Below, in pieces: positions 42,819-58,433 of a stretch of DNA of 64,000 bases (position 1 is its first letter; each line of letters starts with the position of its first letter). The stretch lies in contig JAHDLB010000018.1 of NCBI GenBank assembly GCA_018432315.1, positions 62,001 through 126,000 of the forward strand, in the 5' to 3' direction. The position numbers were made by a program, and so were the translations under genes. This DNA is from Anaerolineae bacterium. GTDB taxonomy: Bacteria; Chloroflexota; Anaerolineae; Aggregatilineales; Aggregatilineaceae. The notes beneath the pieces are model-generated. The model ran no database searches, was not told where the DNA came from, and saw only the letters and a program-made list of their open reading frames with translations.

Positions 42819-45239
42819 TTACGGCACGCGCGGCGCCAGCCCTGCCTGTGGCGTTGCGCTCGGCGTTGGCTCCACCGGTGCCGGCGTCGGAGTCGGTGTT
42901 GGCGTTGCACTGGCCGGAACAGCGGTTGGCGAAGGCTCGCCGCCATCCTCCGGCTCCTCGGGTTCTGGCTCGTCAGCCGGCAGCGCCTCTTCGCCAAGCT
43001 CCTCGACGACCTGCTGGGCGATATCGACCACGCGGCGCTCGAATGCGTCGTCGACGAAGGGATAGCCGTACCGCGTGTGCCACAGCATCACCCACTCGAA
43101 CTCGTTCAGCGCCGGGACCGGTTCGGCCAGCTCGGCCAGCAGCAGCCCGCGGAAATAGTGATCGACTGCCCGCTGCCGGATGGCGAGCGCCTGGTCGATA
43201 TCGTTCAGCGCCAGGCGCAGTTCGAGATCGCGCTCGTCGTCGTCCAACGACCGGTTGCGCATGGTCAGCCAGTAGCGCGCCTGCCCGCGATACGAGTACG
43301 CGTCGGCGCGCTGTGCGTCCGACGCCAGCGCCGTGATCAGCGCGTCGTCCAACTCCGCGAACATGTCGCGGTAATCGCACGACAGCTCGTCGGGATAAAA
43401 CGTGCACAACTCGACGAGGGCCCTGGCCTTCAGGAGCCGGTACGACGCCTTCTCCGGCTCGTCGACCAACAGTTGCTCCACGCGATTCAGTCCGCTGGCA
43501 TACTCGCCCAGCCGGAAATCGATCTCGGCCAGGGTGAGATTCACGGCAGAATCCACCGCGTGATCGCCGCTCGGCACGACACGCCGCAAGTCCGCACGTG
43601 CATCCAACAATCGCCCCTGCCGGTAGAACAGATCGCCCCGGATGCGGTACGCCTCCTGCACCACGTCCGCCGCCTCGTTCGACAGATCGGCCTGCGCCGT
43701 CAGAATGTGGTTCAGAGCTGTCTCCGCCATCCGGTAGTTGCCCTCACCCACCCGCGCGCGTGCCAGCAGCAGGTATCCCAGTGGATCGCCGGGATAGTAC
43801 AGCAGCAGTGTTTGCGCGCTCAGCACGGCAAGTCCATACCGCGCCTGCCGGGACTCCTCGTCGCCCGGCGATTGCTCGGCCAACATCAGGGTCGTCCTGG
43901 CCTGCAATTGGAGCGCCATCTGGGATGCCGGCTCGACATACAGCGCCTGCCGGATGACATCCAGCGCGGTATTCGCCTGCCCGTTTGCCAGCTCGATCTC
44001 CGCCAACATGATCAGCAGGTTGACATCCCCCGGTGACTCGGTCAGCGCGGCATTGATCGTGCTCCACGCGGTGGCGATCTGCCCCTGGGCCAGCTCGACG
44101 CGCGCCTTGGTCACGCTCGCGGGCACGAGCTTGGGATCGGCGGCCAGGGCGCGGCTGCTCCAACTGAGCGCGCTGTTCAGCTTGCCGCCCCCCTGCAAAT
44201 AGGACACGTGCGCCAGCCCCGCAAAAATCAGCGGCGAGTCCTGGCACGAGCTAAACCGCGCGTTCGGCGGCTGGTACGCCAGCGCCTCGGTGAGAATGCG
44301 CTCGGCCCTGTTGAGATCTGCCGGGTTACCTTTCTCCGCGTGACTCAGGGCCTCGTAATACACGACTGCCGGATAGCAGTGGTCGCCCGACAGGACGTGT
44401 TCGGCTTCCAACGTCCCCACTGCCAGATCGTACTCGCCCACCGAATAGTAGTTCACAGCGTCTTGAATCGCGTTGGCAACTGCAGCATCGACGCGCGGGT
44501 AGATCGCCGTCGGGCGAAACTCGAACGCGCTCCCCGCAGCAACGCCACGCGGCAAGCCCGCCGGAGTGCTCGTCAGGATCGCTGCAACTTCGAGCGGCAG
44601 AGGGGTCGGCGTTGCGCCGCCGGGTGTCGGCGTCAGGGTCAGCGTCGGGGTTGCGCTCGGCACGCGGGTCGCCAGGGCCGCCACCTCGGTGCCATCGTCG
44701 CCATCCAGCACGCCCAGCGCGGCCAGCAGCACCACCAGGCCGATCACGGCTCCCACCACCACGACCGCCACCGTGGCGTAGGTCGCCCGGCGCAGACGCT
44801 CCGCGCCGCCCTCGCCATACCGCCGCCGTCGTTTTGGCGCCCAGGTGATATTCAAAGCATCCGGCGGCTCGGAGGAATGGCGCCGCAGGATATCGTCGAG
44901 CGCCGGCTGCAATCGCGTGAACTTATCCTCGGCCAGGACCGGAATGCTGCCTGCCGTCTCCGCGCCACCCTCCTGGACGGGCGCGCCTACCTCGACCCCT
45001 AACGCCCGCAGCCCCTTGATAGCGTGCTCGTTGTTGGGATTCAAGGCCAGCAGTTGCTTGAGGCAAAACCGGCGCTCTTTATTATCCCGTGCCACGCTGC
45101 TCAACCACAGCCACGCGGTTTCGTTCTCCGGATCGAGCTGGATCGCGCGCTGAAGCAATTCTCGAGCAGCTTCGGGCTGGCTATTCCGCGCCGCGGCAAT
45201 ACCTTGTTGCAGGAGCTGTTTCGCGTGTTCTTGCGCCAT
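42819..45239 (-). CDS. Membrane-anchored TPR protein, TPRs on both sides of the membrane
   Basis: An 806-aa protein. Residues ~1-85 carry two TPRs (EAARELLQRAIQLDPENETAWLWL) that lie in the cytoplasm. A single helix (VAVVVVGAVIGLVVLLAALGV, about 157-178) follows, then a Thr/Pro-rich linker (TPTLTLTPTPGG), and residues ~250-730 contain many extracytoplasmic TPR-like helical pairs. The last ~70 residues are again acidic and Pro/Thr-rich. The order of solute-like features suggests a scaffold for envelope protein complexes; no enzymatic motif is seen. A candidate promoter (TTGTGA, 18 bases, TACAAT) lies in the divergent region upstream, shared with thpR. Confidence 0.78.
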   Translation of the reverse strand: MAQEHAKQLLQQGIAAARNSQPEAARELLQRAIQLDPENETAWLWLSSVARDNKERRFCLKQLLALNPNNEHAIKGLRALGVEVGAPVQEGGAETAGSIPVLAEDKFTRLQPALDDILRRHSSEPPDALNITWAPKRRRRYGEGGAERLRRATYATVAVVVVGAVIGLVVLLAALGVLDGDDGTEVAALATRVPSATPTLTLTPTPGGATPTPLPLEVAAILTSTPAGLPRGVAAGSAFEFRPTAIYPRVDAAVANAIQDAVNYYSVGEYDLAVGTLEAEHVLSGDHCYPAVVYYEALSHAEKGNPADLNRAERILTEALAYQPPNARFSSCQDSPLIFAGLAHVSYLQGGGKLNSALSWSSRALAADPKLVPASVTKARVELAQGQIATAWSTINAALTESPGDVNLLIMLAEIELANGQANTALDVIRQALYVEPASQMALQLQARTTLMLAEQSPGDEESRQARYGLAVLSAQTLLLYYPGDPLGYLLLARARVGEGNYRMAETALNHILTAQADLSNEAADVVQEAYRIRGDLFYRQGRLLDARADLRRVVPSGDHAVDSAVNLTLAEIDFRLGEYASGLNRVEQLLVDEPEKASYRLLKARALVELCTFYPDELSCDYRDMFAELDDALITALASDAQRADAYSYRGQARYWLTMRNRSLDDDERDLELRLALNDIDQALAIRQRAVDHYFRGLLLAELAEPVPALNEFEWVMLWHTRYGYPFVDDAFERRVVDIAQQVVEELGEEALPADEPEPEEPEDGGEPSPTAVPASATPTPTPTPAPVEPTPSATPQAGLAPRVP

Positions 45240-46001: not shown

Positions 46002-46045
46002 TTCTGAAGGCTGTGCTACAATCAGGATCACAATCTGTTCAAGAG

Positions 46046-46408
46046 ATGGAGGTAAGACCGCTGGAACCTATAGAATTGGCCCGGATCATCGTGGATCTGG
46101 CATCGGACAAAAAAGGTGAAAACGTCGTCTTGATGGATATGCGCCAGGTGTCGCCAATCACCGATTTTTTCATCATCGTGAGCGGCACCAGCGACCGGCA
46201 GCTAAAAGCCATCATCGAGCACATCGCAGATGAACTCAAGAAAACGCACGACATCCGTCCCTGGCGCACTGAAGGGGCCGCGTCCGGGGGATGGGTGTTG
46301 ATCGACTATGGCGATGTCGTCGTTCACGCGTTTCTCCCCGAAAAACGAGGGTACTACGATCTCGAAGGTCTTTGGCGCGAAGCCCCGGTGATGGTCCGTA
46401 TCCAATAG
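46046..46408 (+). CDS. rsfS: Ribosome silencing factor RsfS
   Basis: A protein of ~115-120 aa of the Iojap/RsfS family, which binds L14 and blocks subunit joining when nutrients are scarce. EPIELARIIVDLASDKKGENVVLMDM, TDFFIIVSGTSDRQLKAI, WVLIDYGDVVVHAFLPEKRGYYDLEGLW are all typical. The start is debatable. ATG 46046 is the nearest conventional codon, but a perfect GGAGGT at 46048-46053 lies inside that reading and points to CTG 46061, seven bases on, which would give the family's usual (L/M)EPIELA start. Confidence 0.9.
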   Translation: MEVRPLEPIELARIIVDLASDKKGENVVLMDMRQVSPITDFFIIVSGTSDRQLKAIIEHIADELKKTHDIRPWRTEGAASGGWVLIDYGDVVVHAFLPEKRGYYDLEGLWREAPVMVRIQ

Positions 46409-46494: not shown

Positions 46495-46944
46495 TTACTC
46501 GAATATCCATCGCTCGGTGTCGCGCTGCCAGCTTAGCAGCTCGCCCGGCGCGAAGAACAGGCTCACCTCGCGCTCGGCGCTCTCCGGCTTGTCCGAGCCA
46601 TGGACCAGGTTGCGGCCCGTTTCCATCCCCAGGTCACCACGAATGGTCCCCGGCGCCGCGACGATGGGATTGGTCTTGCCAATCGTGCCGCGCGCCGCCT
46701 CGATAGCCTCGTTGCCCTCCAGCACCATTACGATAACCGGCGCCGACGTGATATACGCCAGCAGAGATTCGTAGAAGTCCTTCCCCACGTGCTCCGCATA
46801 GTGCTTCTCGGCCAGCTCGCGGCTGATCTGCATGAACTTCATCCCCACGATCCGCAGGCCACGAGCCTCGAAGCGGCGGATAATCTCGCCGGCCAGCCCT
46901 CGCTGCATCGCATCGGGTTTGATAATGATGAGTGTCCGTTCCAC
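46495..46944 (-). CDS. ndk: Nucleoside diphosphate kinase
   Basis: A 149-aa enzyme that interconverts nucleoside di- and triphosphates. ERTLIIIKPDAMQRG, the active-site His in GRNLVHGSDKPESAEREV and the ending LFFAPGELLSW fit exactly. The length is normal. It converges with rsfS; upstream lies a strong hairpin and the acidic Trp-motif gene. Confidence 0.96.
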   Translation of the reverse strand: MERTLIIIKPDAMQRGLAGEIIRRFEARGLRIVGMKFMQISRELAEKHYAEHVGKDFYESLLAYITSAPVIVMVLEGNEAIEAARGTIGKTNPIVAAPGTIRGDLGMETGRNLVHGSDKPESAEREVSLFFAPGELLSWQRDTERWIFE

Positions 46945-47040: not shown

Positions 47041-49479
47041 CTAGAGCAGATCGAGGGCGCTGCGATACGCGTCGAGCGCATCCTGCAGCTTCCCTTGCTG
47101 CATGTAGGTGTCACCCAACAGCCGGCGCACACGCGGCGTTTGGGGATGCTCGTCGACCAGCCGGACCAGGTCGTTCGATACGTCCTCCAGCAACTGCGCG
47201 TTATCGACCAGGGCTTCGTACTGGTCCATGCTCGGCGTCAGCTCCCGGTTGGCGTACAGGGCGCGCGCCAGCCCCAGCCGGTTGGCGAAATCGTTCGGGT
47301 CCTCCTCCAGACGCCTCCGGTACGAGTCGAACAGCTCGGTCGGCGGGATCGAGTCGGCGGCCCGCGCCATCACATCCGGGCTTGGCTCGACCGGCGTCTC
47401 GCGCGCCGCCTGATCCGCGAACTCCGGCAGGTCGGGCGCTGGCTCCCACTCGATCTCCTCGTCCACCGGCTCCTGGCTCATCTCGGCCAACCACGCCGGA
47501 ACTTCGGCGGGCTCCGCCTCGGCCTCTGCCTGGATCGGCTCGGTCAGCCACGCCGGGACATCCTCTTCCGGCGCTTGTTCGGGTTCCTGGTCGTCCATCG
47601 TGAGCCAATCCGGCATATCGACCGGCACCGCCTCGACGAACGCCTCTTCGGCTTCGCTCGCCGTCGCCTCGACCTGGGCAACGGCCTGGGCGTACCACTC
47701 CGGCTCCGAATCATCCTGAGCCAATCGCCGGTCATATTCGGCATCCAGCGCCTCGGCCAGGTCGTCCGGCTCTTCGGGGACGAAATCCCCGCTCAAGAAC
47801 GCTTCCAGCTCGGACTCGGGAACCGACGCATCCTCAAGCTCGAAATCTTCGATAACGCCCTGGTCGAGCAGTTCCTCGAGATCGGCCACATCCAGGGATG
47901 CCGCCTCCTCTTCGATGGCGTCCTCATCGAGCAGGGAGTCACTCCGCATTTCCGCCAGCCACGGCGGCAGTTCGGCGGGCTCAGCCGGTTCAAGCTCGTC
48001 GGCCAGCTCGGCCATGGCTTCTTCTTCGCTGCGCCGCGCTTCGGCCAGTTTGGCCGCCTGCCGTTTGAGCCAGGCCAGCTCTTGCTCACCCGTGAGCTGA
48101 CCGTGCGCCTGCGCGTACGCGATCTCTTCGTCGGTCATGTCCCCCAACGGGTCCTCGACGGGAGTCGCCACCGCTGGCGCTTCGGCGGCGGCAAAGTCCC
48201 CCGCCCCACCTTCGACGGTCAGCACCGACGCGACATCCGCGTCGGGTTCGGTGACCAGATCCGACAACCACGAGAGCGATTCATCCATCATACCCAGCTC
48301 GCCGAGCGCTTCGATCTCCTCGCGTTCGGGCTGCCCTTCCGCTTCCTCAGCGGCCCCGGCATCCAGGTCAATCTCCTCGTCGCGTGACAGCAGTTCGAAC
48401 GGTGAATACTCGACATAGCCGGGCTCATCGACCACCGTGTCTTCCGGCAGTTCGGGGATTTCCAGGTCCGCCGCCGTGGTCAGCTCTTCGATCTTCGCGC
48501 CCTGTCGCTTCGCCAGCGTTTCGAGCCAGGCCATCGGATCCGCCCCGGCGAGAACCGCCATGTCATCTTCGACGTCGGGCTGTCCGGCCAGCCCAGCCTG
48601 CACGGCGTCTTCGGGTCGCGGCTCCAGGTCGACATCGGCCTCCGCCGCCCACGTCTCTTCCGGCGGTTCGCTGTCGAAAGGCGTCGCGCTTTCTACCGGC
48701 TGGTCATCACCGGCTTCGGCCTGCAGCTCGCCCAGCGGAAACGCCTCACCTGCCCCGGCGTCCTGCGGTTCGGCCAGGTCGGCCAGCCACGCCTCGGCAT
48801 CTTCTTCATCGGCCACAATCGACCCAAGATCGTCTTCGAATTCATCTTCCTCGCCCAGCAGCGAGCCGAGATCGAATTCCTCGGACGATTCCAGGTCAGC
48901 CCAGCTCACCGCCGGCGCGGGCTCGCCAGCGTCCGCGACTTCCTCATCCCAGCCCGGAACGGCTTCCGCTTCGTCGAACTGCTCCGGTTCGAACGCGGGC
49001 TGTTCGTCCGCTGGCCCCTCCACCGCGTCGAATTCCTCGAAGAACCGGTCGTCGCCCAGTTCGGCCATTTCCGCCAGTTCGTCAACCGTGCCAGGGACGT
49101 CCTCACCCGTCTGAACGGACAGCGTATCCAACCACTGCATCGGGTCGGACGCGCCTTCAGACACGGCCTCGAACTCGTCGGATACACTCTCCACTTCCGG
49201 TTCGATCTCGTCCTCGAACGCCTCGACTTCCTCGATCTCCTCACGCGAATCAGCGGCCTGTTCCACGGGCTTTTCGCTGATGGAATACGGTACGTATCCC
49301 GGCTCGTCGATCACGGCATTTTCCGGAATCGGGATGTCGAGATCGGCGTCCGTCAGGAATTCATCCTCTTTGGCACCCTGGCGTTTGGCGAGGCTTTCGA
49401 GCCAGGCCATCTGCTCTTCAAGGGACATATTCTCAAAGTCGGGGAATTCGTCGCCCGGAGTATCTGGGGGCGGTACCAT
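47041..49479 (-). CDS. Acidic Trp-motif repeat protein with C-terminal TPRs
   Basis: An 812-aa, very acidic, mostly disordered protein. About a dozen short Trp-centred motifs are scattered through it (MAWLESLAK, MQWLDTLS, EAWLADLA, LSWLSDLV, PPWLAEMR, MPDWLTMD, VPAWLAEM). A ~45-residue segment is duplicated: AWLESLAKRQGAK...DEPGYVPYS near residues 24-70 and AWLETLAKRQGAK...DEPGYVEYS near 319-365. Residues ~710-812 hold TPRs (ARALYANRELTPSMDQYEAL, LLGDTYMQQGKLQDALDAYRSALDLL). It lies 52 bases downstream of a bigger relative and forms an operon with it. The function is unknown; a binding scaffold is inferred. No membrane or secretion signal is seen. Confidence 0.85.
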   Translation of the reverse strand: MVPPPDTPGDEFPDFENMSLEEQMAWLESLAKRQGAKEDEFLTDADLDIPIPENAVIDEPGYVPYSISEKPVEQAADSREEIEEVEAFEDEIEPEVESVSDEFEAVSEGASDPMQWLDTLSVQTGEDVPGTVDELAEMAELGDDRFFEEFDAVEGPADEQPAFEPEQFDEAEAVPGWDEEVADAGEPAPAVSWADLESSEEFDLGSLLGEEDEFEDDLGSIVADEEDAEAWLADLAEPQDAGAGEAFPLGELQAEAGDDQPVESATPFDSEPPEETWAAEADVDLEPRPEDAVQAGLAGQPDVEDDMAVLAGADPMAWLETLAKRQGAKIEELTTAADLEIPELPEDTVVDEPGYVEYSPFELLSRDEEIDLDAGAAEEAEGQPEREEIEALGELGMMDESLSWLSDLVTEPDADVASVLTVEGGAGDFAAAEAPAVATPVEDPLGDMTDEEIAYAQAHGQLTGEQELAWLKRQAAKLAEARRSEEEAMAELADELEPAEPAELPPWLAEMRSDSLLDEDAIEEEAASLDVADLEELLDQGVIEDFELEDASVPESELEAFLSGDFVPEEPDDLAEALDAEYDRRLAQDDSEPEWYAQAVAQVEATASEAEEAFVEAVPVDMPDWLTMDDQEPEQAPEEDVPAWLTEPIQAEAEAEPAEVPAWLAEMSQEPVDEEIEWEPAPDLPEFADQAARETPVEPSPDVMARAADSIPPTELFDSYRRRLEEDPNDFANRLGLARALYANRELTPSMDQYEALVDNAQLLEDVSNDLVRLVDEHPQTPRVRRLLGDTYMQQGKLQDALDAYRSALDLL

Positions 49480-49531
49480 GCTGCTTCCTCCTCAGGTGCC
49501 AGTTGACGGCAAGACGTTGCGCTTGGCGCAC

Positions 49532-52500
49532 CTATTCGGTGCTTTCGTCGTCCTCTTCCACCACATCCCGCAGCCATTCCGGCATTTCCGATGCCCGATT
49601 CTGGGGCGCCGGCTGCGGCGAGGCCAGATCGCTTTCTTTCGGTCGGCGCAGCCAGGCGGGTGGTTGGTCCTCGAACGAAAAATCGACCGGGGCATCCTCG
49701 TCCAGCCCGGACTCGGCAGCCTGATCCTCAACCTCGTAGGCGGCCATCTCGCTGCCGGATTCAACACCATTAGTATGGGCCAGATCATCCGGTTGTGCAA
49801 ACTCATCGAGCGCTGGTTCTGGCTCGTCCAGACCTTCTTCAGTTTCGGGCGTGTCGCTGATTTCCATCAGCCAATCCGGCGTTGTGCTGGGCTGCAGCAC
49901 GCCGGTTTCTTCGGCAGTCTGGCTGTACGGCTCCGCCTCGTCGAGCAGCATATCATCCAGTTTATCCGCTTCCGACGAGGTGATTGCCATCAGCCACTCC
50001 GGCATGACCCCTTCCTCTGCTTCAGGCTCCTCATCGAGCGATGCCAGCACGTCCTCCTCTTCGCCGGATTCGTCTTCTTCGAGCGCGCCATACTCCGCAT
50101 CCTCGAAATCGAGATCGGCCAGGCTCTCGACGACGCGCTGGGGCTCGTCAGGCTGTGGCTCCACCGGTTCCCCGGAGAGCTCGTCCCAGGCTTCAGCGTC
50201 CGACTCCCCCGCGAGATCGTCATCCGGCAGATCCTCCCCGGTGAAGGCCATCATCCAGTCGGGAAGCTCGTCGGGCTGCAAAACGCCGGTATCGCCCGCG
50301 GACCCATAGCCCGTGTCTTCTTCGTCCGTTTCAAGCGCAAACGAGTCGAACGCCTCGCTGCCCGTATCCTCGATCTCGCTCACACCGGGCGCTTCGATCG
50401 GCTCGACATCGGCCAGCCAGGCTGGATCGGCGGTTTCTGGCGAGGGAATGGGCAGCGCGTCTTCGTCATCCTCACCGAACGGGAACTCGTCCACCTCGCT
50501 ATTGGCGGGCGTATCGTCAACCGGCGCGTAATCTGCCGCTTCCGGTTGACTCTCCGTCTCCTCAAGCTCAGCGGGCCAGGTCTCGGCCTCTTCGTCCGCG
50601 AAGATCTCCTGCTCGGCGGGCTCATCAGCTATGGGCGGGTAACTCGCCGCTTCCGGCTGGCTCTCGGCCTCGTCAAACTCGGCGGGCCAAGGCGCGGCCT
50701 CTTCGCCGGTGGCAATCTCTGGCTCCGCAGCCTCAACTTCCGTCAAATCCGGTTGGTCGTCCTGCCAATCGAACGCCTCAGCCGGTTGTTCCGCCTCATG
50801 GCTTTCCTCGACCTCTGGCGCCACATCGCTTTCGGCACGCTCCAACGCAAACGACCCGAGCCAGTCATCATCAGCCGATCCGGACTCTGTTTCCAGCCAG
50901 CCCAGGTCCTCCGGCGCAGCCTCGCTGCCGCCATCTTCCGCCTCGGCAGCATCGTGCTCGCCGAACGTAGCGAGCCAGTCCCCATCTGGCCGGGACACAT
51001 CGGGGACGTCGTCTTGCGGCGCGGGAGCGAAGAAATCGTACTCCGGCTCCGTCATCCAATCCGGCGACGGCTCCGCGCTGGCAGCCGGTGCCTCGTCGGC
51101 CACTTCGCGGCCCATCAGCTCGTCGAGATCCAGATCGGGCGGGGGCATCGATGCCCGCCGCAGCGCGTCGAGGTCTACCGCCCCCTCAGCATCGGAATCA
51201 GCCGCGTCCTCGGTGAACGCGTCGTCCGCTGCCCCATCACGTTCCGGCGATTCGTCGCCCAGCGCAGACCACCAATCCGGCTCGGTTTCGGCCTGTGCGG
51301 CTGGGGCATCTGCCTCTTCCGGCTCCTGTTCGATAACGCCGGGCCACGCTTCAGCACCATCATCCGCTTCTTCCGGTGCCGGTTCTGTTTCCTCCGGCAT
51401 GGCATCCTCCACCGCGGGCTCCCCGGCCTCGTCGACCGGCGCGAGCCATTCCGGCGCCGCCGGTTCGACCTCACCCGCTGGCTCGGCATCGTCTTCAGCC
51501 AGGTCGGTATCCTCAATCTCAGACAGGTAACCGGCGAATCCACGCGCCACGTCATCGTCGGTCACCGCATCTGCTGGAGTGGGTTCGTCCTCCGCCATCC
51601 AGGTTGCGACGTCCTCCTCGCCGGCTTCGAGCGTCAGCAGGCCATCGTCGCTGGCCTCGCGCAGCGAATCGAGCCAATCCTCGTCGCTGTCGCCCTGCGC
51701 TTCGCCGGGCGCCTGTTCGGCAGCGTCGAAGATGGACTCGGGGAGTTCCTCCGATGGCAGTTCCTGGGCCATCCAGTCCGGCACATCCGCATCAGGCGCG
51801 GCTTCCGAGGCGGCATCCAGCGCCGCCAGCCAGTCATCCGCGCTCGCATCATCGCCGGTGCCTGCGGCGGGCTCCTCTCCAAACGCCATGCCGCCGGTTT
51901 CCGGCCCGGTGTGCTCGTCGTCCACCAGCCAGTCCGGAACGAGCGCTTCCGGAGCCGGTTCGTCGCTGCCCGCGTCTTCCAGGGGCGGCAACGCATCGTC
52001 AGCGAGCGCTCCCTGCTCCGCCTCGATGGCCCAATCTGGCAGCGCGTCAGCCGGCGTCCCGGTGGGCTGGCTCTCGCCCAAGTCCCCGGACTCGCTCGTG
52101 TCGTCTTCGCCCAACAGCCAATCGGCGGCCAGCGCATCGAGATCGTCCTCGGACGGGGAAGGATAGTCCGCGTCACCGTGCGCCATGTCACCGGGCTGCC
52201 CGAGCCAGTCATCTGCCGGCGGCGTTTGCTCGTCCGGCTGGAGCCCAGCCATTTCGGCGAACCAATCCGGAACGTCGTCATCCTGCCCGGCATCGTCGGG
52301 CTTCTCGCCCTGCTCCGCCGCCTGCCAGTCTGGCTGAACCGGCGGCATTTCCTGTTCCGTCCCTGCGCCAAGATTCATCCCGCCAAACCAGTCGGGCACG
52401 TCGGAATCCGCGGCGCCCAGCCAATCACCCGGCTCGTCGCTATCATACGACATGCCGAAAATGGCGTCGGTGTCGATCTTATCCGGGCCGGAGGACGTTT

Positions 52501-53419
52501 CCGGCTCGTCGATGTCCATATCCGACGGCGCCAGGAACAGGTCCTCCATCGCGGCGCTCTCGCCAAAATCGTCCAGGTCGTGAACCCAGGACGGAGTCTC
52601 GGCGGACAGCTCGGCGGTGGCTTTGGCGCTGTAATCCAGCCGGGCCAACCGCTTCGGGTCCGGCACGTCGGCGTCAGGCTCGATCAGGCGCGCCGCTTCA
52701 TATGGGTCGAGCGCTTCCAGCCGGTCGAGGAACTTCTGCGCATCGGTCGGGCGTTCGTATTCCAGCCACAGGCTCGCCATGATCGAATTCGCGGCGATGC
52801 TGTTCGGCACCTTCTTGAGAACCTGGGCCGCCGCTTCACCCGCTTCGACCGGGTGCCCGCTCTCCCACAGAATCTCGGCGAGCAAAACCTGCAGGTCAAT
52901 TCGTTGGGGATCCTGCTCGATCGCGGCCCGCAGCTCGATCAACGCTTGCTCGTACAGGTTGTTGTTGGCAAACTGGCGGGCCAGCCCGCTCCGCGTCAGC
53001 TGGATTTTTTCGGGAACGTGATCCTCGCCATCCCGCCGCGCGTACAGGTCGCGCAGTGCATCCTGCAATACGGCATTTCCGGGCAGTTGCTCGTAGGCCC
53101 GTTCGAGGTGCCAGATGGCGCGGTCGAGATCGTCCTCGTGCTCGCGAATCTCGCTCAGTCCCAGGTGCGTGATGTGATCGTTCGGCAAGACGCTCAAGAC
53201 ACGCAGAAAGACTTCTGCCGCCTCGTCGAAATACTCCTGTATGCCCTCGTTTTGGCCCTTTTGGAGAAGCGCCTTGCCCAGCAGCCGGTACGTCTCCACG
53301 TTATGAGGAAAGTGCTGCAAAATGTAGCGACAATGGCTCACGACCTCTGTCGGAGATTCGTTCTCCAACATCATGTCGAGCTCATCCAGGTATTCCCGCA
53401 GAGATACCGTTTCGGCCAT
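49532..53419 (-). CDS. Giant acidic protein: N-terminal TPRs and ~25 P-D-W-L motifs
   Basis: A 1295-aa protein. Residues ~1-250 are TPRs (EVVSHCRYILQHFPHNVETYRLLGKALL, DDLDRAIWHLERAYEQLPGN, NNLYEQALIELRAAIEQDPQ). From ~278 to the end it is strongly acidic and disordered, with ~25 motifs of the type P/D/E-D/E-W-L/M/F-x-x-hydrophobic: TPSWVHDL, VPDWFGGM, VPDWFAEM, ADDWLAAL, VPDWMAQE, DEDWLDSL, SPDWMTEP, LPDWMMAF, MPEWLMAI, TPDWLMEI, MPEWLRDV. They are spaced irregularly, 15-70 residues apart. Codon use and composition match the neighbours. A good promoter lies just upstream; the smaller relative follows 52 bases on. The function is unknown. Confidence 0.85.
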   Translation of the reverse strand: MAETVSLREYLDELDMMLENESPTEVVSHCRYILQHFPHNVETYRLLGKALLQKGQNEGIQEYFDEAAEVFLRVLSVLPNDHITHLGLSEIREHEDDLDRAIWHLERAYEQLPGNAVLQDALRDLYARRDGEDHVPEKIQLTRSGLARQFANNNLYEQALIELRAAIEQDPQRIDLQVLLAEILWESGHPVEAGEAAAQVLKKVPNSIAANSIMASLWLEYERPTDAQKFLDRLEALDPYEAARLIEPDADVPDPKRLARLDYSAKATAELSAETPSWVHDLDDFGESAAMEDLFLAPSDMDIDEPETSSGPDKIDTDAIFGMSYDSDEPGDWLGAADSDVPDWFGGMNLGAGTEQEMPPVQPDWQAAEQGEKPDDAGQDDDVPDWFAEMAGLQPDEQTPPADDWLGQPGDMAHGDADYPSPSEDDLDALAADWLLGEDDTSESGDLGESQPTGTPADALPDWAIEAEQGALADDALPPLEDAGSDEPAPEALVPDWLVDDEHTGPETGGMAFGEEPAAGTGDDASADDWLAALDAASEAAPDADVPDWMAQELPSEELPESIFDAAEQAPGEAQGDSDEDWLDSLREASDDGLLTLEAGEEDVATWMAEDEPTPADAVTDDDVARGFAGYLSEIEDTDLAEDDAEPAGEVEPAAPEWLAPVDEAGEPAVEDAMPEETEPAPEEADDGAEAWPGVIEQEPEEADAPAAQAETEPDWWSALGDESPERDGAADDAFTEDAADSDAEGAVDLDALRRASMPPPDLDLDELMGREVADEAPAASAEPSPDWMTEPEYDFFAPAPQDDVPDVSRPDGDWLATFGEHDAAEAEDGGSEAAPEDLGWLETESGSADDDWLGSFALERAESDVAPEVEESHEAEQPAEAFDWQDDQPDLTEVEAAEPEIATGEEAAPWPAEFDEAESQPEAASYPPIADEPAEQEIFADEEAETWPAELEETESQPEAADYAPVDDTPANSEVDEFPFGEDDEDALPIPSPETADPAWLADVEPIEAPGVSEIEDTGSEAFDSFALETDEEDTGYGSAGDTGVLQPDELPDWMMAFTGEDLPDDDLAGESDAEAWDELSGEPVEPQPDEPQRVVESLADLDFEDAEYGALEEDESGEEEDVLASLDEEPEAEEGVMPEWLMAITSSEADKLDDMLLDEAEPYSQTAEETGVLQPSTTPDWLMEISDTPETEEGLDEPEPALDEFAQPDDLAHTNGVESGSEMAAYEVEDQAAESGLDEDAPVDFSFEDQPPAWLRRPKESDLASPQPAPQNRASEMPEWLRDVVEEDDESTE

Positions 53420-53469
53420 GGTGCAACTCGCTTCCCGAGGACTACTCGCCTAGCTCCGAGATTTTCCTC

Positions 53470-53498
53470 ATTATGCATTGCCAGAAATAAAAGCGCAA
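53470..53498 (-). promoter_or_regulatory. Promoter for the acidic Trp-motif operon
   Basis: On the minus strand TTGCGC (53498-53493), 17 bases, CATAAT (53475-53470), about 50 bases before ATG 53419. Confidence 0.6.
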
Positions 53499-53515
53499 GA
53501 TAACAGGATTTTGCA

Positions 53516-54547
53516 TTAAGATAATTGATGAAGTTGCTTAAGACGAGCGATGAGCGCGTCTACCGGGCGCGAGATTTCGCGGGCCGGGCCGACCGGGTCG
53601 ACGGCTGTCGGATCGCCCGTCAGCGCGCGGGCAACGTTCGCCCATCCGTGGCTGAGCACCTGGAGATTGTAGCCGCCTTCCAGCACGCATATGATCCGCC
53701 CCTTGCACACCCGCCCGGCCAACGCGTACAGCGACCGTGTCAGCCGGTCGTATCCACTCAGCGTCAGCCGCAGGTTCGCCAGTGGGTCTGCCCAGTGAGC
53801 ATCGAAACCCGCCGAAACCAGGATCAACGCCGGCTTGAAGCGTTCCGCCGCGGGAATCACGACCTGGTTGAACACGTCGAAGAAACCGGCATCGCCGGTA
53901 CCGGGCGCCAATGGGATATTCAGGGTGAGCCTCTCGCCCCGCCCCGCGCCGATCTCCCTGATATCGCCCGTGCCAGGGTACAGGGGCGATTGGTGTGTCG
54001 AGATGTAGTACACGCTGGGATCGCTGTAGAAGATATCCTGCGTGCCGTTACCATGATGGACGTCGTAATCGACGATCAGCACGCGCCGCACCCCATACTG
54101 TCGCTGAGCGTACCGCGCGGCAATCGCCACGTTGTTCAGCAGGCAAAACCCCATGGCCTCGTCACGCGTAGCGTGATGCCCCGGCGGGCGCACCGCAGCC
54201 AGCCCGTTGGTCGCCTGCCTTCCCATGACGGCGTCCACGACGCGCAGCACAGCGCCCGCCGCCAGGACCGCGATCGCATACGAATCGGGCAGCACGTAGG
54301 TATCCGGGCCGAACATGGTGGGCGTCCCGATCTCGGCGACCCTGCTCAGCCGTTTGAGATGCCCCGGATCGTGCACAGCCAGCAAATCGTCCTCGGTCGC
54401 CGGCGCCACGTCCACCGGCAGCAACCGCTCGCGGAGGCCGTCCGCAGTGAGGCGCTCCTCGACAGCCGCCAACCGTCCGGCGTGCTCGGGATGATCGGCC
54501 AGCGTGTGTCCGGCAAAACGCGCGTCAGTTACATAAGCTGTTTTCAT
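53516..54547 (-). CDS. Histone deacetylase-family (AcuC-like) protein
   Basis: A 343-aa zinc deacetylase of the class I/II HDAC superfamily, which in bacteria includes AcuC, polyamine and N-acetyl-metabolite deacetylases. Active-site parts are complete: RPPGHHA (two His), DYDVHHGNGTQ (Asp, His metal ligands), GFDAHWADPLA (Asp) and EGGYN (Tyr region). The GFDAHWADPLANLRLT form is like the plant HDA/bacterial aminohydrolase branch. The substrate is unknown; lysine deacetylation of acetyl-CoA synthetase is one possibility. A hairpin lies upstream between it and hppA. Confidence 0.9.
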   Translation of the reverse strand: MKTAYVTDARFAGHTLADHPEHAGRLAAVEERLTADGLRERLLPVDVAPATEDDLLAVHDPGHLKRLSRVAEIGTPTMFGPDTYVLPDSYAIAVLAAGAVLRVVDAVMGRQATNGLAAVRPPGHHATRDEAMGFCLLNNVAIAARYAQRQYGVRRVLIVDYDVHHGNGTQDIFYSDPSVYYISTHQSPLYPGTGDIREIGAGRGERLTLNIPLAPGTGDAGFFDVFNQVVIPAAERFKPALILVSAGFDAHWADPLANLRLTLSGYDRLTRSLYALAGRVCKGRIICVLEGGYNLQVLSHGWANVARALTGDPTAVDPVGPAREISRPVDALIARLKQLHQLS

Positions 54548-54581
54548 GGTCGGTCATTTCCTGGACCATAGCCTGAATCTT

Positions 54582-54625
54582 AAGGGCGATCCACCAGACG
54601 CCGGTTGGCGCGGCAGATCGCCCTT
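54582..54625. terminator. Hairpin between hppA and HDAC-like gene
   Basis: AAGGGCGATC (54582-54591) pairs perfectly with GATCGCCCTT (54616-54625), ten bp, with GC-rich inner sequence. It follows the hppA stop. No long T-run is present. Confidence 0.55.
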
Positions 54626-54700
54626 CACTACCTTATCCGGTGATGAAGCTCACACCCGGTTCGCAGCCCTCTCGTGCGACCGGCGCGTGACGATCGAGCA

Positions 54701-57148
54701 TCAGTCGCCCGTTGCCGGAACATCCGCGATGCGCTCGATGGCTTCGCTCTCGCCCATCTCGATTTGCCGGTCGCTGCGGCGTACCGACCACAAGATCAGG
54801 CCCACCGACACCACTACGCCGATGATCACCCCGATGCCGTACCCCTCGTACTGGACCACAATCGGTGCCACGATCAGCGCCACCAGGTTCATGACCTTGA
54901 TCATCGGGTTCAGCGCCGGACCAGCCGTATCCTTGAGCGGATCGCCAACCGTATCGCCCACCACGCTGGCTTTGTGGTTTTCGCTACCTTTGCCGCCGAA
55001 GTGACCGTCTTCGACGTACTTCTTCGCGTTATCCCACGCGCCGCCCGCATTCGACATGAACACGGCGAGAAGCTGCCCCACCGCGATCACACCGACGAGA
55101 AAGCCGCCCAATGCCTGTTCTTTCAGGAGCAGGCCAACGGCTATCGGGGCCAACACGGCGATCAACCCGAGCGGGATCAGCTCGATCTGCGCCGACTGTG
55201 TCGAGATCGTCACAGCCTGGGCGTAGTCCGGCGTCTTCGTCCCGTTGGCAATCTCCGGAATGCGAAGCTGGCGACGAACCTCGGCCATGATCAAACCAGC
55301 CGCGCGATTCACAGCTTTGATCAGCAGGCCGCTGAACAGCAGCGGCAGCGAACCGCCGATCAACAGGCCAACGAACACGACCGGGTCGGCCAGGTTGATG
55401 ACTTCCTCAAAGGGCTTACCTTCGGGCCACACACGCTTGATGTCGGTGAAGAAGCTGCCGAACAGCGACACCGCCGCGATCACTGCCGAGCCAATCGCCA
55501 CGCCCTTGGTGATGGCCTTGGTGGTGTTGCCCGCGGCGTCCAGGTCGGCCATGATCTGGCGCGCTTCCGGCCCCATGCCGGCCAGCTCACCGATGCCGTT
55601 CGCGTTGTCCGAAATCGGACCGAACGTATCCATGCTCACGTTGTTGCCCGTGTGCGACAGCATCCCCACGCCGATCAGCGACACGCCGAACAGAATGTAG
55701 CTGTAGCGGTGCACGTCCGGCACTTCGTGACAGCTCACCACGAACAGCGCCAAAACCATGATCCACAGCGCCTGGAAGAAACCTTCCACCAGGTGCCCTT
55801 TCATCTGGCCGCGCACGATCTGGATGACCGACAATGCCACACCGGCCAGCACCACGATGAGTTCGTACTCATCGGGGAAGTCGAAGCTGTACACGACGAT
55901 CGAAGCCGTGAGGCTCGCCACAATCACGAACAGCGCCCACACGCTGGACAGGTACCCCAACGAAAGACCTTCCAGAATGACCGACGCGGGGCCAAACCGG
56001 GTTGAGGCCGAGATCGTCTGGACGCGGCTGCTTTTCGCGCTGGTTGCGTACGACGTCAGTGGGTTGAAGGCCACTGCCAGCGCCACACCAACCGCCACCA
56101 GCGTCGCCAGCGAAAGCTGACCGGCGTACAGCCACGCGACGAGGAACGTCGAGATAATCGTGATACCGCTGGAGACTTCGTAACTCTTGTACATCGCCTC
56201 TTCGGCATCGTCCACGCGCCACAACGACACGGCATAAGTCCCAACGATCGAGCTAATTACGCCGATGCCGCGCACAAGCAGCGGCAGCACAATCCAATAC
56301 AACTCACCGTTGATCGCGGTCAGCGCCAGGCCGAGGATCAGGCTCGACACAATCGTGACCTCGTACGATTCGAAGATGTCCGCGGCCATACCCGCGCAGT
56401 CGCCCACGTTGTCGCCCACGAGATCGGCAATCACGGCAGCGTTGCGCGGATCGTCCTCTTCCATGCCGGCCTCGACCTTACCCACCAGGTCGGCGCCAAC
56501 ATCGGCAGCCTTGGTATAGATGCCACCACCCACACGCATGAACAGCGCCAGCAGCGTTCCACCGAAACCAAAGCCCAACAACACATCGGGTGAAGCCTTA
56601 CCGAAGATAATGAAGATGAGCGTGCCGCCCAGCAGCCCCAGGCCGTCGGTCAGCATTCCCGTGATCGTCCCGGAACGGTAGGCGATTTTCAGGGCTTCCT
56701 GGTACCCCCCCCGCTCGGCAGCGGCAGCGACACGGACATTCCCCTGAACGGCCATATTCATGCCGAAGAAACCGACCATGGCCGAGAAAGAGGACCCCAT
56801 GACGAATGCCAGTGCGCGCGCCAACGCGATGACGATCCGCGCCGTATCCTTGTCGTGGTCGAAGAACTCGTTCGCCTCGGGCGTCGGCTCGACCACGAAC
56901 ACGCTCAGGAACATGGCGATGGTCAGCACCGCGATCAGCACGGCGACCGTCTTCAACTGCGTGCGAAGATAGGCATTCGCGCCATCACGAATGTAGCCCC
57001 AAATGCGCTGCATCTCCTTCGTGCCCTTGTCGGCGGCCATGATGTAATTGCGCAGCCATAAGGCGTATCCCAAGGCCAGGCCCGCGGTTGCCAGCACGAT
57101 GAAGACCATTACTTCTTCGTAAGTCTTCACGTTCTCCATTTGAAACAT
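54701..57148 (-). CDS. hppA: Membrane proton-pumping pyrophosphatase, K+-independent type
   Basis: An 815-aa protein with ~16 hydrophobic helices that pumps ions while hydrolysing PPi. Catalytic motifs are GGGIYTKAADVGADLVGKVEAG and DDPRNAAVIADLVGDNVGDCAGMAAD, and the last acidic block VGDTVGDPLKDTAGPALNPMIK. The residue pair that decides potassium need is GNTTKAITKG: Lys and Thr mark the K+-independent H+ pump class (Ala in the K+-dependent one). AGGAGGGG precedes ATG 57148. A weak promoter (TTGCCC, 18 bases, TAAAAT) lies in the ~180-base leader upstream. It is single-gene. Confidence 0.95.
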   Translation of the reverse strand: MFQMENVKTYEEVMVFIVLATAGLALGYALWLRNYIMAADKGTKEMQRIWGYIRDGANAYLRTQLKTVAVLIAVLTIAMFLSVFVVEPTPEANEFFDHDKDTARIVIALARALAFVMGSSFSAMVGFFGMNMAVQGNVRVAAAAERGGYQEALKIAYRSGTITGMLTDGLGLLGGTLIFIIFGKASPDVLLGFGFGGTLLALFMRVGGGIYTKAADVGADLVGKVEAGMEEDDPRNAAVIADLVGDNVGDCAGMAADIFESYEVTIVSSLILGLALTAINGELYWIVLPLLVRGIGVISSIVGTYAVSLWRVDDAEEAMYKSYEVSSGITIISTFLVAWLYAGQLSLATLVAVGVALAVAFNPLTSYATSAKSSRVQTISASTRFGPASVILEGLSLGYLSSVWALFVIVASLTASIVVYSFDFPDEYELIVVLAGVALSVIQIVRGQMKGHLVEGFFQALWIMVLALFVVSCHEVPDVHRYSYILFGVSLIGVGMLSHTGNNVSMDTFGPISDNANGIGELAGMGPEARQIMADLDAAGNTTKAITKGVAIGSAVIAAVSLFGSFFTDIKRVWPEGKPFEEVINLADPVVFVGLLIGGSLPLLFSGLLIKAVNRAAGLIMAEVRRQLRIPEIANGTKTPDYAQAVTISTQSAQIELIPLGLIAVLAPIAVGLLLKEQALGGFLVGVIAVGQLLAVFMSNAGGAWDNAKKYVEDGHFGGKGSENHKASVVGDTVGDPLKDTAGPALNPMIKVMNLVALIVAPIVVQYEGYGIGVIIGVVVSVGLILWSVRRSDRQIEMGESEAIERIADVPATGD

Positions 57149-57328
57149 GATGAAAAGTACCCCTCCTAAAATGGGCAGCGCCCAAAACGCGATGCATCAG
57201 TGGCTTTCAGAGCTCACAAACTCGAATTTGCGGGTCTGAACAGCGAACAGACAACAGGGCGAATTTTACCGCGATTAGGCACAACGGGGCAAAACATTGT
57301 TTTCAAATTGACGTGTTCTCAATGCGAT

Positions 57329-58333
57329 CTATTCGAACAACCGGGCGATCTCGTCGCGCGCGGGCCGGGCCAGCGCGCCACGCCGCACGTCCACCACGCC
57401 CGCGCCCTGCCCGGCCACACGCCCCAGGACGTGCACGGCAATCCCCGCCTGTTCGAGTGCCCGCCGGCTCTGCTCCGCATGATCCGCCTGCACGGTCAGC
57501 AGCAAAGCCCCGGACGCGATCGCCCCTGCCGGGTCGAGGCCCAGTGTCTCGCAGATCGCCTTGCCTTCCGGCAGCCAGAGGGGATGATCGCCGCTCAAAT
57601 CGACTTCCAGGCGGCAGCCGCTGGCCTCTGATAGCTCCCACAGCCCGGTTAGCACTCCGCCTTCCGTCGGATCGTGCATGCTGGTCACGCCACCCGCCGC
57701 CACGGCCACCTGCGCATCGCGCACCACGCTGATCCCCGGATCGTGCAACAAACCCGCACAGCGATCGATCTCCTCAGCGGAGAAAAACGGCAGGAGCGCC
57801 TCGCGCTTTTCGCGCGCCAGGATCGCGGTTGCTTCGAGGGGTGCCCCTTTGGTGAGCATGATCACGTCGCCCGGCTGGGCGCCGCCGGTGCGAATGAGGC
57901 GATCCTTCGCCACCTCGCCCAACATGCTGCCCACCACGATCGGGCGATCGATGCCGTAGGTGATCTCGGTATGCCCGCCGACCACAGCGACGTTCAGCGA
58001 GCGGCACGCCGCTGCGATCTGCTCGAAGATCGACCGGACCAGTGCCGTCGTCGCGTGCGCTTCCGGCAGCAGCAGGGTCGCCATGAACCACAGCGACGTC
58101 GCGCCGGTCGTCGCGATGTCGTTCGCGTTGATGTGCACGGCGTACCATCCGATTTCATCCGTCGCAAATGTGATCGGATCGATCTTCGCCACCAGGTACC
58201 GGTCCGGCATGTCGATGACCGCCGCGTCTTCACCCACGCTCGGCCCCAGCACGACGCGCGGCCCGCCCGGCAGCAGCGCCATCAGGTCCGCGAGGGGCTC
58301 AGGGGGCAGTTTTCCAACAGGAAGCCGGGTCAT
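57329..58333 (-). CDS. AIR synthase-family (HypE/SelD/ThiL-like) protein
   Basis: A 334-aa ATP-binding protein of the AIR synthase/PurM superfamily: SVGEDAAVIDM (phosphate loop), KIDPITFATDEIGWYAVHINANDIATTGA (typical D-x-I-x-x-x-x-D-D/E-x-G...N-D), GGHTEITYGID and MHDPTEGGVLTGLWELSEASG, the last like HypE. No HypE C-terminal Cys (…PRIC) is present; the C-terminus is …ARDEIARLFE. So it is not carbamoyl transferase HypE; a role in Fdh or hydrogenase maturation is only inferred from context. ATG 58333 has GGAGGG before it, directly after the leader terminator. It may be expressed from fdhD readthrough and from the promoter at 58532. Confidence 0.85.
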   Translation of the reverse strand: MTRLPVGKLPPEPLADLMALLPGGPRVVLGPSVGEDAAVIDMPDRYLVAKIDPITFATDEIGWYAVHINANDIATTGATSLWFMATLLLPEAHATTALVRSIFEQIAAACRSLNVAVVGGHTEITYGIDRPIVVGSMLGEVAKDRLIRTGGAQPGDVIMLTKGAPLEATAILAREKREALLPFFSAEEIDRCAGLLHDPGISVVRDAQVAVAAGGVTSMHDPTEGGVLTGLWELSEASGCRLEVDLSGDHPLWLPEGKAICETLGLDPAGAIASGALLLTVQADHAEQSRRALEQAGIAVHVLGRVAGQGAGVVDVRRGALARPARDEIARLFE

Positions 58334-58351
58334 GGTTTTCCCTCCAAAAGC

Positions 58352-58378
58352 AAGGTCCCCGAGCGAGTCGGGGACCTT
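58352..58378 (-). terminator. Terminator/attenuator in the leader of the AIR synthase gene
   Basis: AAGGTCCCCGA and TCGGGGACCTT form a perfect 11-bp stem with a five-base loop; on the minus strand GCTTTT follows, then the GGAGGG ribosome site. It lies between the leader ORF and ATG 58333, so it is an attenuator candidate. Confidence 0.75.
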
Positions 58379-58386
58379 CCGTTGTG

Positions 58387-58433
58387 GGCGCCGTGACACC
58401 TTATAGACAACCAAGGAGGGGTGTCACAGCGCC
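58387..58433 (-). promoter_or_regulatory. 14-bp leader hairpin covering the end of the leader ORF
   Basis: On the minus strand GGCGCTGTGACACC (58433-58420) pairs with GGTGTCACGGCGCC (58400-58387), 14 of 14 pairs with one G-U. The loop contains CCTCCTT, complementary to the leader ORF's own AAGGAGG. Confidence 0.6.

Follow-up and report, generated by a model that had tools for sequence, protein, structure and literature searches.

Gene pair and domain organization

The window analysed here is a stretch of 64,000 nucleotides from an Anaerolineae bacterium of the order Aggregatilineales, phylum Chloroflexota (assembly GCA_018432315.1, contig JAHDLB010000018.1, positions 62,001 to 126,000), and coordinates are counted from its first letter. 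The system in question comprises two adjacent genes of the minus strand, A and B, separated by 52 bp and taken here as the N-terminal and C-terminal halves of a split scaffold protein. Gene A (49532..53419) is an open reading frame (ORF) of 1295 amino acids (aa) with a homologue in 137 of 151 genomes of the order, and gene B (47041..49479) encodes 812 aa and has a match in 115 of the same 151. The initial annotation, made from the sequence alone, had placed both genes correctly and described their products as acidic, in agreement with net charges of -334 (A) and -206 (B).

A begins with a solenoid of about 7 tetratricopeptide repeats (TPRs) in residues 1-265 (52625..53419, minus strand), identified by Pfam TPR_19 (E 4e-13) and by homologue alignment. 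B ends in a second TPR domain, residues 715-812 (47044..47337, minus strand), supported by TPR models, by homologue alignment and by an AlphaFold predicted local distance difference test score (pLDDT) of mostly 95-98; the best TPR model at this end reached E 7e-5, weaker than its own curated cut-off. Pfam-type models, homologue alignments and AlphaFold agree on both ends, as had been proposed, and the match of tandem helix-turn-helix repeats to TPR models places them in the TPR superfamily.

The remainder of A (residues 266-1295; 49535..52624, minus strand) is an acidic tail, predicted to be disordered, with 31 tryptophans (Trp), 22 of them followed by a hydrophobic residue. The acidic region of B includes an extra folded helical piece at residues 445-527 (47899..48147, minus strand; AlphaFold blocks with pLDDT mostly 74-95), so that the description of the pair as mostly disordered holds for the tail of A and fails for this part of B. 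No relative of B residues 440-612 was found by a sequence search of solved structures. Pfam, NCBIfam and PADLOC returned TPR-type models only and no family over the acidic part of either protein, where none had been recognised initially; solved structures searched by sequence and fold gave generic TPR solenoids and no specific relative. No hydrophobic N-terminal segment was seen by eye in A or B.

Forty loci of the order were hand-picked for long or suitable contigs. A and B are adjacent and co-directional in 36 of them and form one chain in two (L087 and L088); the remaining two were excluded from the protein sets, L080 because its frames are interrupted and L100 because its contig ends within A. 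From these sets were built alignment and profile A1 (N-terminal TPR domain, 30 of 39 A-type proteins) and A2 (C-terminal domain, 31 of 39 of the order), together with alignments A3 (27 chosen sequences) and A4 (35 of 37 B proteins, without L091B and L092B). Outside the order, 20 loci of the class and phylum were hand-picked from matches of the N-terminal profile, and 18 of these contain a single long chain with the A1 domain at its start and the A2 domain at its end; in the other two, L134 and L135, the C-terminal domain was not seen and the frames run to the contig end.

For L087, a fused homologue of 1083 aa, the AlphaFold model comprises confident TPR ends at about residues 1-265 and 997-1083 (pLDDT >90, mostly 92-98 in the N-terminal one), with about 7 N-terminal and 2-3 C-terminal repeats. 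The ends lie about 730 residues apart and nearly all of the gap has low pLDDT, mostly <50, one module helix at 548-561 reaching about 76. In a maximum-likelihood tree of 54 N-terminal TPR domains (without L134, L135, L136, L139 and L143) fused proteins fall outside the order; the split state takes two changes to explain, namely two fissions, or else a fission and a re-fusion, in family f3. Because fused homologues carry both domains and, in the class, also the motif array on a single chain, and because the tree puts the fused state outside the order, A and B are, as judged from their sequences, two halves of one scaffold protein that is split in this order of Chloroflexota. The two TPR positions, previously described as if they were separate designs, are better regarded as the two ends of one ancestral protein.

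Among the matches listed for the A domain profile, 78 of 80 records were titled Chloroflexota or taxa belonging to that phylum. Two records, titled Bacteroidetes bacterium (L170) and Pleurocapsa minor (L197), contain this Chloroflexota protein and are probably mislabelled or mixed genome bins.

The aromatic motif array

The strict pattern [PDE].?W[LMF] was identified 19 times in A and 5 times in B (24 for the pair), and Trp followed by L, M, F, I, V or Y 23 and 11 times (34 for the pair). The initial count of about 37 motifs is accordingly lowered to 24-34 depending on the definition, the motifs themselves being real and far above shuffled sequences: P-x-W-hydrophobic strings number 13 in A against a shuffle mean of 0.47 and 5 in B against 0.25, with a maximum of 3 in 1000 shuffles for each. 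The same strings exceed all 1000 shuffles in 68 of 76 homologue tails (39 A and 37 B), the exceptions being L061B, L062B, L067B, L070B, L074B, L091B, L092A and L092B. Around the Trps of the A tails, 1161 in number, the approximate consensus is [DE]-x-P-D-W-L-x-[ED]-[MIL].

Motif spacing had been called regular and without fixed period. The absence of a fixed period stands, and regularity holds only as a spacing more even than random in most homologues. Of the 74 proteins that have at least 8 motifs, 70 show a coefficient of variation under the random mean, 38 of the 74 reaching p<=0.05, and the median spacing is about 40 aa; for the genes studied, B gave p=0.02 and A itself p=0.16.

Among 10 same-family homologues no residue of the tails is conserved better than Trp, which is kept in 69% of aligned cells in A and 80% in B. 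As aligners favour W-W columns, W was masked before alignment for the conservation test. In the masked alignment of these homologues, Trp followed by L, M, F, I, V or Y was kept in 74/146 cells (A) and 91/102 (B), Trp without a following hydrophobic residue in 4/64 and 7/29, and all other residues in 28% and 43%, respectively. Conserved positions of the A tail are mainly its first and last motifs, and the middle ones turn over between homologues. The first motif, with W278 of A (52586..52588, minus strand), directly follows the TPR domain and is invariant in 30 of 30 aligned homologues. It had been foreseen that Trp positions drifting like the acidic runs would mean a composition effect; such drift was not observed, the motif Trps being kept under masking and the other Trps not. 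A conserved motif array in a low-confidence acidic chain supports the multivalent scaffold first suggested for this pair.

Other lineages present a different motif in the same layout. Seven proteins (L135-L140 and L143) have an acidic region without the W-L array (0-1 W motifs) and contain PF-[SDTNR]-[LFWPM] strings instead, in 8, 13, 31, 11, 26, 12 and 6 copies, where shuffle means are 0.15-0.81 and the maximum of 500 shuffles is 2-4 in each; PFSL or MEPFD, for example, takes the place of PDWL. Of the two others, L142 has an EEPDWMKQ form with 12 W motifs against a shuffle mean of 0.39, and L141 has 3 W motifs, equal to the shuffle maximum. Acidic bias was identified in all nine (D+E 14-28%, K+R 3-7%). 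The common architecture comprises two TPR heads and a long, predicted-disordered acidic chain with a conserved array of short aromatic motifs.

B also contains a duplicated unit of about 55 residues. Copy 1 (MAWLESLAKRQGA ... DEPGYVPYS) occupies residues 13-66 (49282..49443, minus strand), with a helix at 20-33 of pLDDT about 81-86, and copy 2 residues 301-359 (48403..48579, minus strand), with a helix at 315-325. Both were delimited by local alignment, and the duplication, already noticed at first sight, is real: the local score is 162 against a shuffled maximum of 54. The W-L-E-S-L-A core of the unit, searched as a loose pattern, is present in 0-7 copies per protein in 37 B proteins, and DEPGYV without mismatch is coded nowhere else in the genome.

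In the whole genome, a DNA pattern encoding P-[DE]-W, with middle T in the next codon, gave 202 matches against 117 for the reversed control, clusters being inspected among the first 100 of the 202. About 0.6 Mb of its sequence, partly overlapping, contains 1281 ORFs of at least 150 aa, and five of these have at least 3 loose motifs: A, B, the gene of an acidic repeat protein at L228:13167-14381, and two low-acidity frames that by eye are not gene-like. The third of these (G000:C41:103166-104377 in the genome) encodes 404 aa with an N-terminal repeat region, an acidic middle containing several [DE]DW[LVF] strings and a hydrophobic C-terminal segment, and lies two genes from a REC-Roadblock protein (L228:9911-11056). 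Its relatives in the order that match over most of the length belong mainly to families f1 and f8. This 404-aa protein suggests that the Trp motif is possibly a code common to several proteins.

A further protein of unusual domain mix is encoded in the genome at L107:5503-8637 (G000:C24; 1044 aa). It combines a receiver domain with a long acidic linker, in which a single APEWL motif occurs, and its C-terminal part is matched by an IS200-like transposase model at E 2e-4, just under the cut-off.

Association with Roadblock/LC7 proteins and an MglA-type GTPase

In 8 of 8 hand-picked loci outside the class that have downstream sequence (L136-L143), a Roadblock/LC7 gene lies 15-285 bp downstream of the scaffold, before ndk. 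The Pfam Roadblock model matched with E 2e-16 (L140), 2e-15 (L141), 3e-14 (L142) and 7e-6 (L143), and the genes of the remaining loci were assigned by similarity to L140. Matches to both proteins were listed for 56 non-class genomes. Among these listed matches, Roadblock follows the scaffold on the same strand at a distance of up to 7.5 kb in 41 genomes and, in the other 15, lies on other contigs (14) or far away (1); G437, counted here as non-adjacent, has its adjacent Roadblock gene in L138.

Co-occurrence was counted in a draw of 400 genomes of the phylum, uncorrected for relatedness. The A1 domain at E<=1e-15 was identified in 137 of 145 Roadblock-positive genomes against 52 of 255 Roadblock-negative ones, and at E<=1e-30 in 116 of the 145. 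The genome of the window holds four Roadblock matches and an MglA-type small GTPase at L260 (Pfam ATP_bind_1 2.7e-18, Ras 7.8e-9, and Arf); as a Ras-like GTPase and Roadblock/LC7 proteins are both present, it contains the components of an MglA/MglB-type switch. A5, a profile of this GTPase type with L260 as the member from the genome, matched 75 of the 400 genomes at the cut-off of 1e-40.

Among 53 genomes of the class, Roadblock and the A5 GTPase are present in the same 32. A1 reaches E<=1e-70 in 31 of the 32 but in no other genome of the class, the remaining 21 having weaker A1 matches. Family f12 is divided in the same manner, 2 of 9 genomes having scaffold, Roadblock and GTPase and 7 of 9 none of them. 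Outside the class, all 41 genomes with the A5 GTPase have Roadblock. Genomic coupling of the scaffold to Roadblock/LC7 proteins extends over the phylum, and its coupling to one small GTPase of the MglA type holds within the class.

In the genome of the window a DUF4388 gene (L260:482-1438, G000:C50) directly precedes the MglA-type GTPase. The same arrangement was recognised by the start of the sequence in L252, L253, L258 and L262, Pfam having been run on L260 and L253 only. Six class genomes without Roadblock and GTPase, G286 and G531 (family f14) and G302, G453, G474 and G498 (family f10), have A1-like matches in much shorter frames (309-545 aa), a pattern that would fit a joint loss of motif tail and switch.

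Proposed function and comparison with known systems

The reading favoured here, held at about an even chance, is that A and B serve a Ras-like GTPase/Roadblock switch as its effector or scaffold and would work like SgmX of Myxococcus. SgmX of M. xanthus is described in PMC7519303 as a cytoplasmic protein of 1,060 aa whose two ends carry TPRs and whose middle is unmatched; it binds MglA-GTP, stimulates type IV pili and affects PilB localization, MglB being the GTPase-activating protein. MglB is a Roadblock protein, and PMC9481161 treats MglB and RomY. The likeness is one of large size, cytoplasmic location, TPR ends and an unmatched middle, a general TPR architecture compared by description; it extends to the company of a Ras-like GTPase whose activating protein is of the Roadblock type, represented here by genomic co-occurrence. 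The Chloroflexota protein differs in that it can be split in two genes and in that its acidic region, of low complexity, ranges from several hundred to about 1700 residues in length, and no acidic aromatic motif array is mentioned for SgmX in the available descriptions.

In the proposed mechanism the GTPase in its active state would be recognised by one TPR head, by analogy with SgmX the C-terminal one on B. Numerous molecules of a partner, for which the simplest candidates are the Roadblock protein and a client machine, would be gathered by the motif array, and the other TPR head would anchor this cluster at its target. A local hub would result, assembling according to the state of the GTPase, with A and B serving in the split form as two subunits of one hub. 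The cytoplasmic assembly platform of the initial annotation keeps its scaffold role in this proposal and was less specific than the Roadblock/GTPase context, which had been missed, allows.

A wider version is possible although doubtful: an undescribed, phylum-wide organiser of Chloroflexota in which a two-headed TPR protein with tens of aromatic stickers along its acidic chain would form a multivalent, GTPase/Roadblock-controlled hub and act as a centre of polarity or of filament organisation. The alphabet of these stickers would have been rewritten between W-L and PF-S-L forms from lineage to lineage with architecture and operon partner kept, and the hub split into two co-encoded subunits in one order.

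Several points weigh against the favoured reading. A later description of SgmX (PMC11580455) gives 14 TPRs, the C-terminal three assigned to MglA; this layout is not matched by the Chloroflexota protein, SgmX being a denser solenoid. SgmX is the nearest functional precedent for what seems to be a likeness of architecture only, and membership of its family is not claimed. No Roadblock gene was identified at the scaffold locus in the order or class loci fetched, so that the operon argument applies to the other lineages only, and in the genome of the window the Roadblock genes lie elsewhere than the scaffold locus. A1 at E<=1e-30 is still found in 11 Roadblock-negative genomes of several lineages; G205, of the class, has Roadblock and GTPase with only a weak A1 match; and 70 of 111 non-class Roadblock-positive genomes lack an A5 match at 1e-40, so that another GTPase is needed there. 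The genomes counted are not independent, and the co-occurrence is confounded by shared ancestry. The most constant neighbour of the scaffold is ndk, which could be housekeeping. AlphaFold monomers, a weak test, docked no motif on the TPRs with confidence.

The first of the alternatives, rather unlikely, is a self-assembling condensate in which the motifs are ligands of the TPR grooves of A or B themselves and the chains cross-link, the GTPase link being incidental. The array and the TPRs do occur in one pair or chain, and an invariant Trp motif directly follows the N-terminal TPRs. A precedent is available in the kinesin light chain, whose TPR domain binds W-acidic and Y-acidic peptides; the aromatic residue in acidic context as TPR ligand is the common element, the binding of motifs by TPRs being hypothetical here. 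The kinesin light chain belongs to a eukaryotic system, and its cargoes have few motifs each, not tens. The idea that the TPRs bind the Trp motifs finds no support in the monomer models, within the limits of so weak a test. The motif also changes from W to F between lineages while the TPRs stay, and self-assembly would need a matched change of the groove.

An adaptor for membrane machines such as type IV pili, division or gliding, which would engage a partner outside the GTPase switch and use the motifs to bring in a client ATPase or an envelope protein, is considered unlikely. The action of SgmX on type IV pili and PilB (PMC7519303) agrees with it, as does the 404-aa protein with N-terminal repeat, acidic Trp motifs and hydrophobic C-terminal segment near the REC-Roadblock protein. 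However, inspection by eye of the recurrent neighbour clusters revealed no gene for pili or division, no genome-wide search having been made, and a RodA/FtsW-like ORF (by eye) was found further downstream at one locus only, L139.

A scaffold for nucleotide or translation enzymes, where ndk would mark the pathway and NDK and other enzymes would be organised by A and B, is quite improbable. The gene is downstream of and co-directional with the scaffold in 43 of 59 loci overall and in 16 of 20 class/phylum loci; however, NDK is a housekeeping product whose linkage may reflect gene order only, and in other lineages the Roadblock gene lies between scaffold and ndk and is joined to the scaffold by co-occurrence, a test to which the near-universal ndk is not open. 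A mere composition effect, by which acidic, proline-rich low-complexity drift makes PDW-like strings by chance, would suit the high D, E, P and A content, the turnover in the middle of the A tail and the 8 of 76 proteins not above all shuffles, but it is rejected as largely refuted, and hardly credible, by the 68 proteins above all 1000 shuffles, the motif Trps kept under masking where other Trps are not, and the comparable PF array of other lineages.

With regard to the switch itself, MglA groups 1 and 5 have been reported in Chloroflexi, occasionally near PATAN-domain genes, in PMC4316618, the main text of which has no occurrence of TPR or tetratricopeptide. Set beside the MglA/MglB and conservon (CvnB/CvnD) modules, the same two kinds of switch protein are present here in the same genomes as the scaffold; PATAN neighbours are reported there and a DUF4388 gene adjoins the GTPase here. 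The difference is the scaffold, an additional component. No description of it was found in searches of the open-licence papers of PubMed Central. If the GTPase/Roadblock reading is true, small-GTPase switches of bacteria other than myxobacteria gain a multivalent-scaffold component, in a phylum that is large and poorly studied, and the role of MglA/MglB-type proteins in Chloroflexota becomes testable. The W-to-F swap under a constant layout would then be a natural experiment on the co-evolution of short linear motifs and their readers in bacteria, and a lead to function is obtained for a gene that 137 of the 151 genomes sampled from the order contain.

Neighbouring genes

The gene next downstream of B is ndk, encoding nucleoside diphosphate kinase (46495..46944, minus strand; Pfam NDK 1.7e-55). 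Convergent with it is rsfS (46013..46408, plus strand; Pfam RsfS 4e-33), which neighbours the scaffold in some loci only and is not counted as a member of the system. A further TPR protein (806 aa) is encoded at 42819-45239 (minus strand) and contains a hydrophobic segment as well as a stretch rich in Pro and Thr. It is found near A and B in many same-family loci, and its N-terminal repeat is widespread in these genomes.

An open frame of 1407 codons on the plus strand (49280-53503) is antisense to A and to the start of B; it is probably a side effect of base composition, without evidence for a gene. Upstream of A, at 53516-58414 (minus strand), are a histone-deacetylase-fold gene, a H+-pyrophosphatase and a selD-like gene, in an order kept in many same-family loci.

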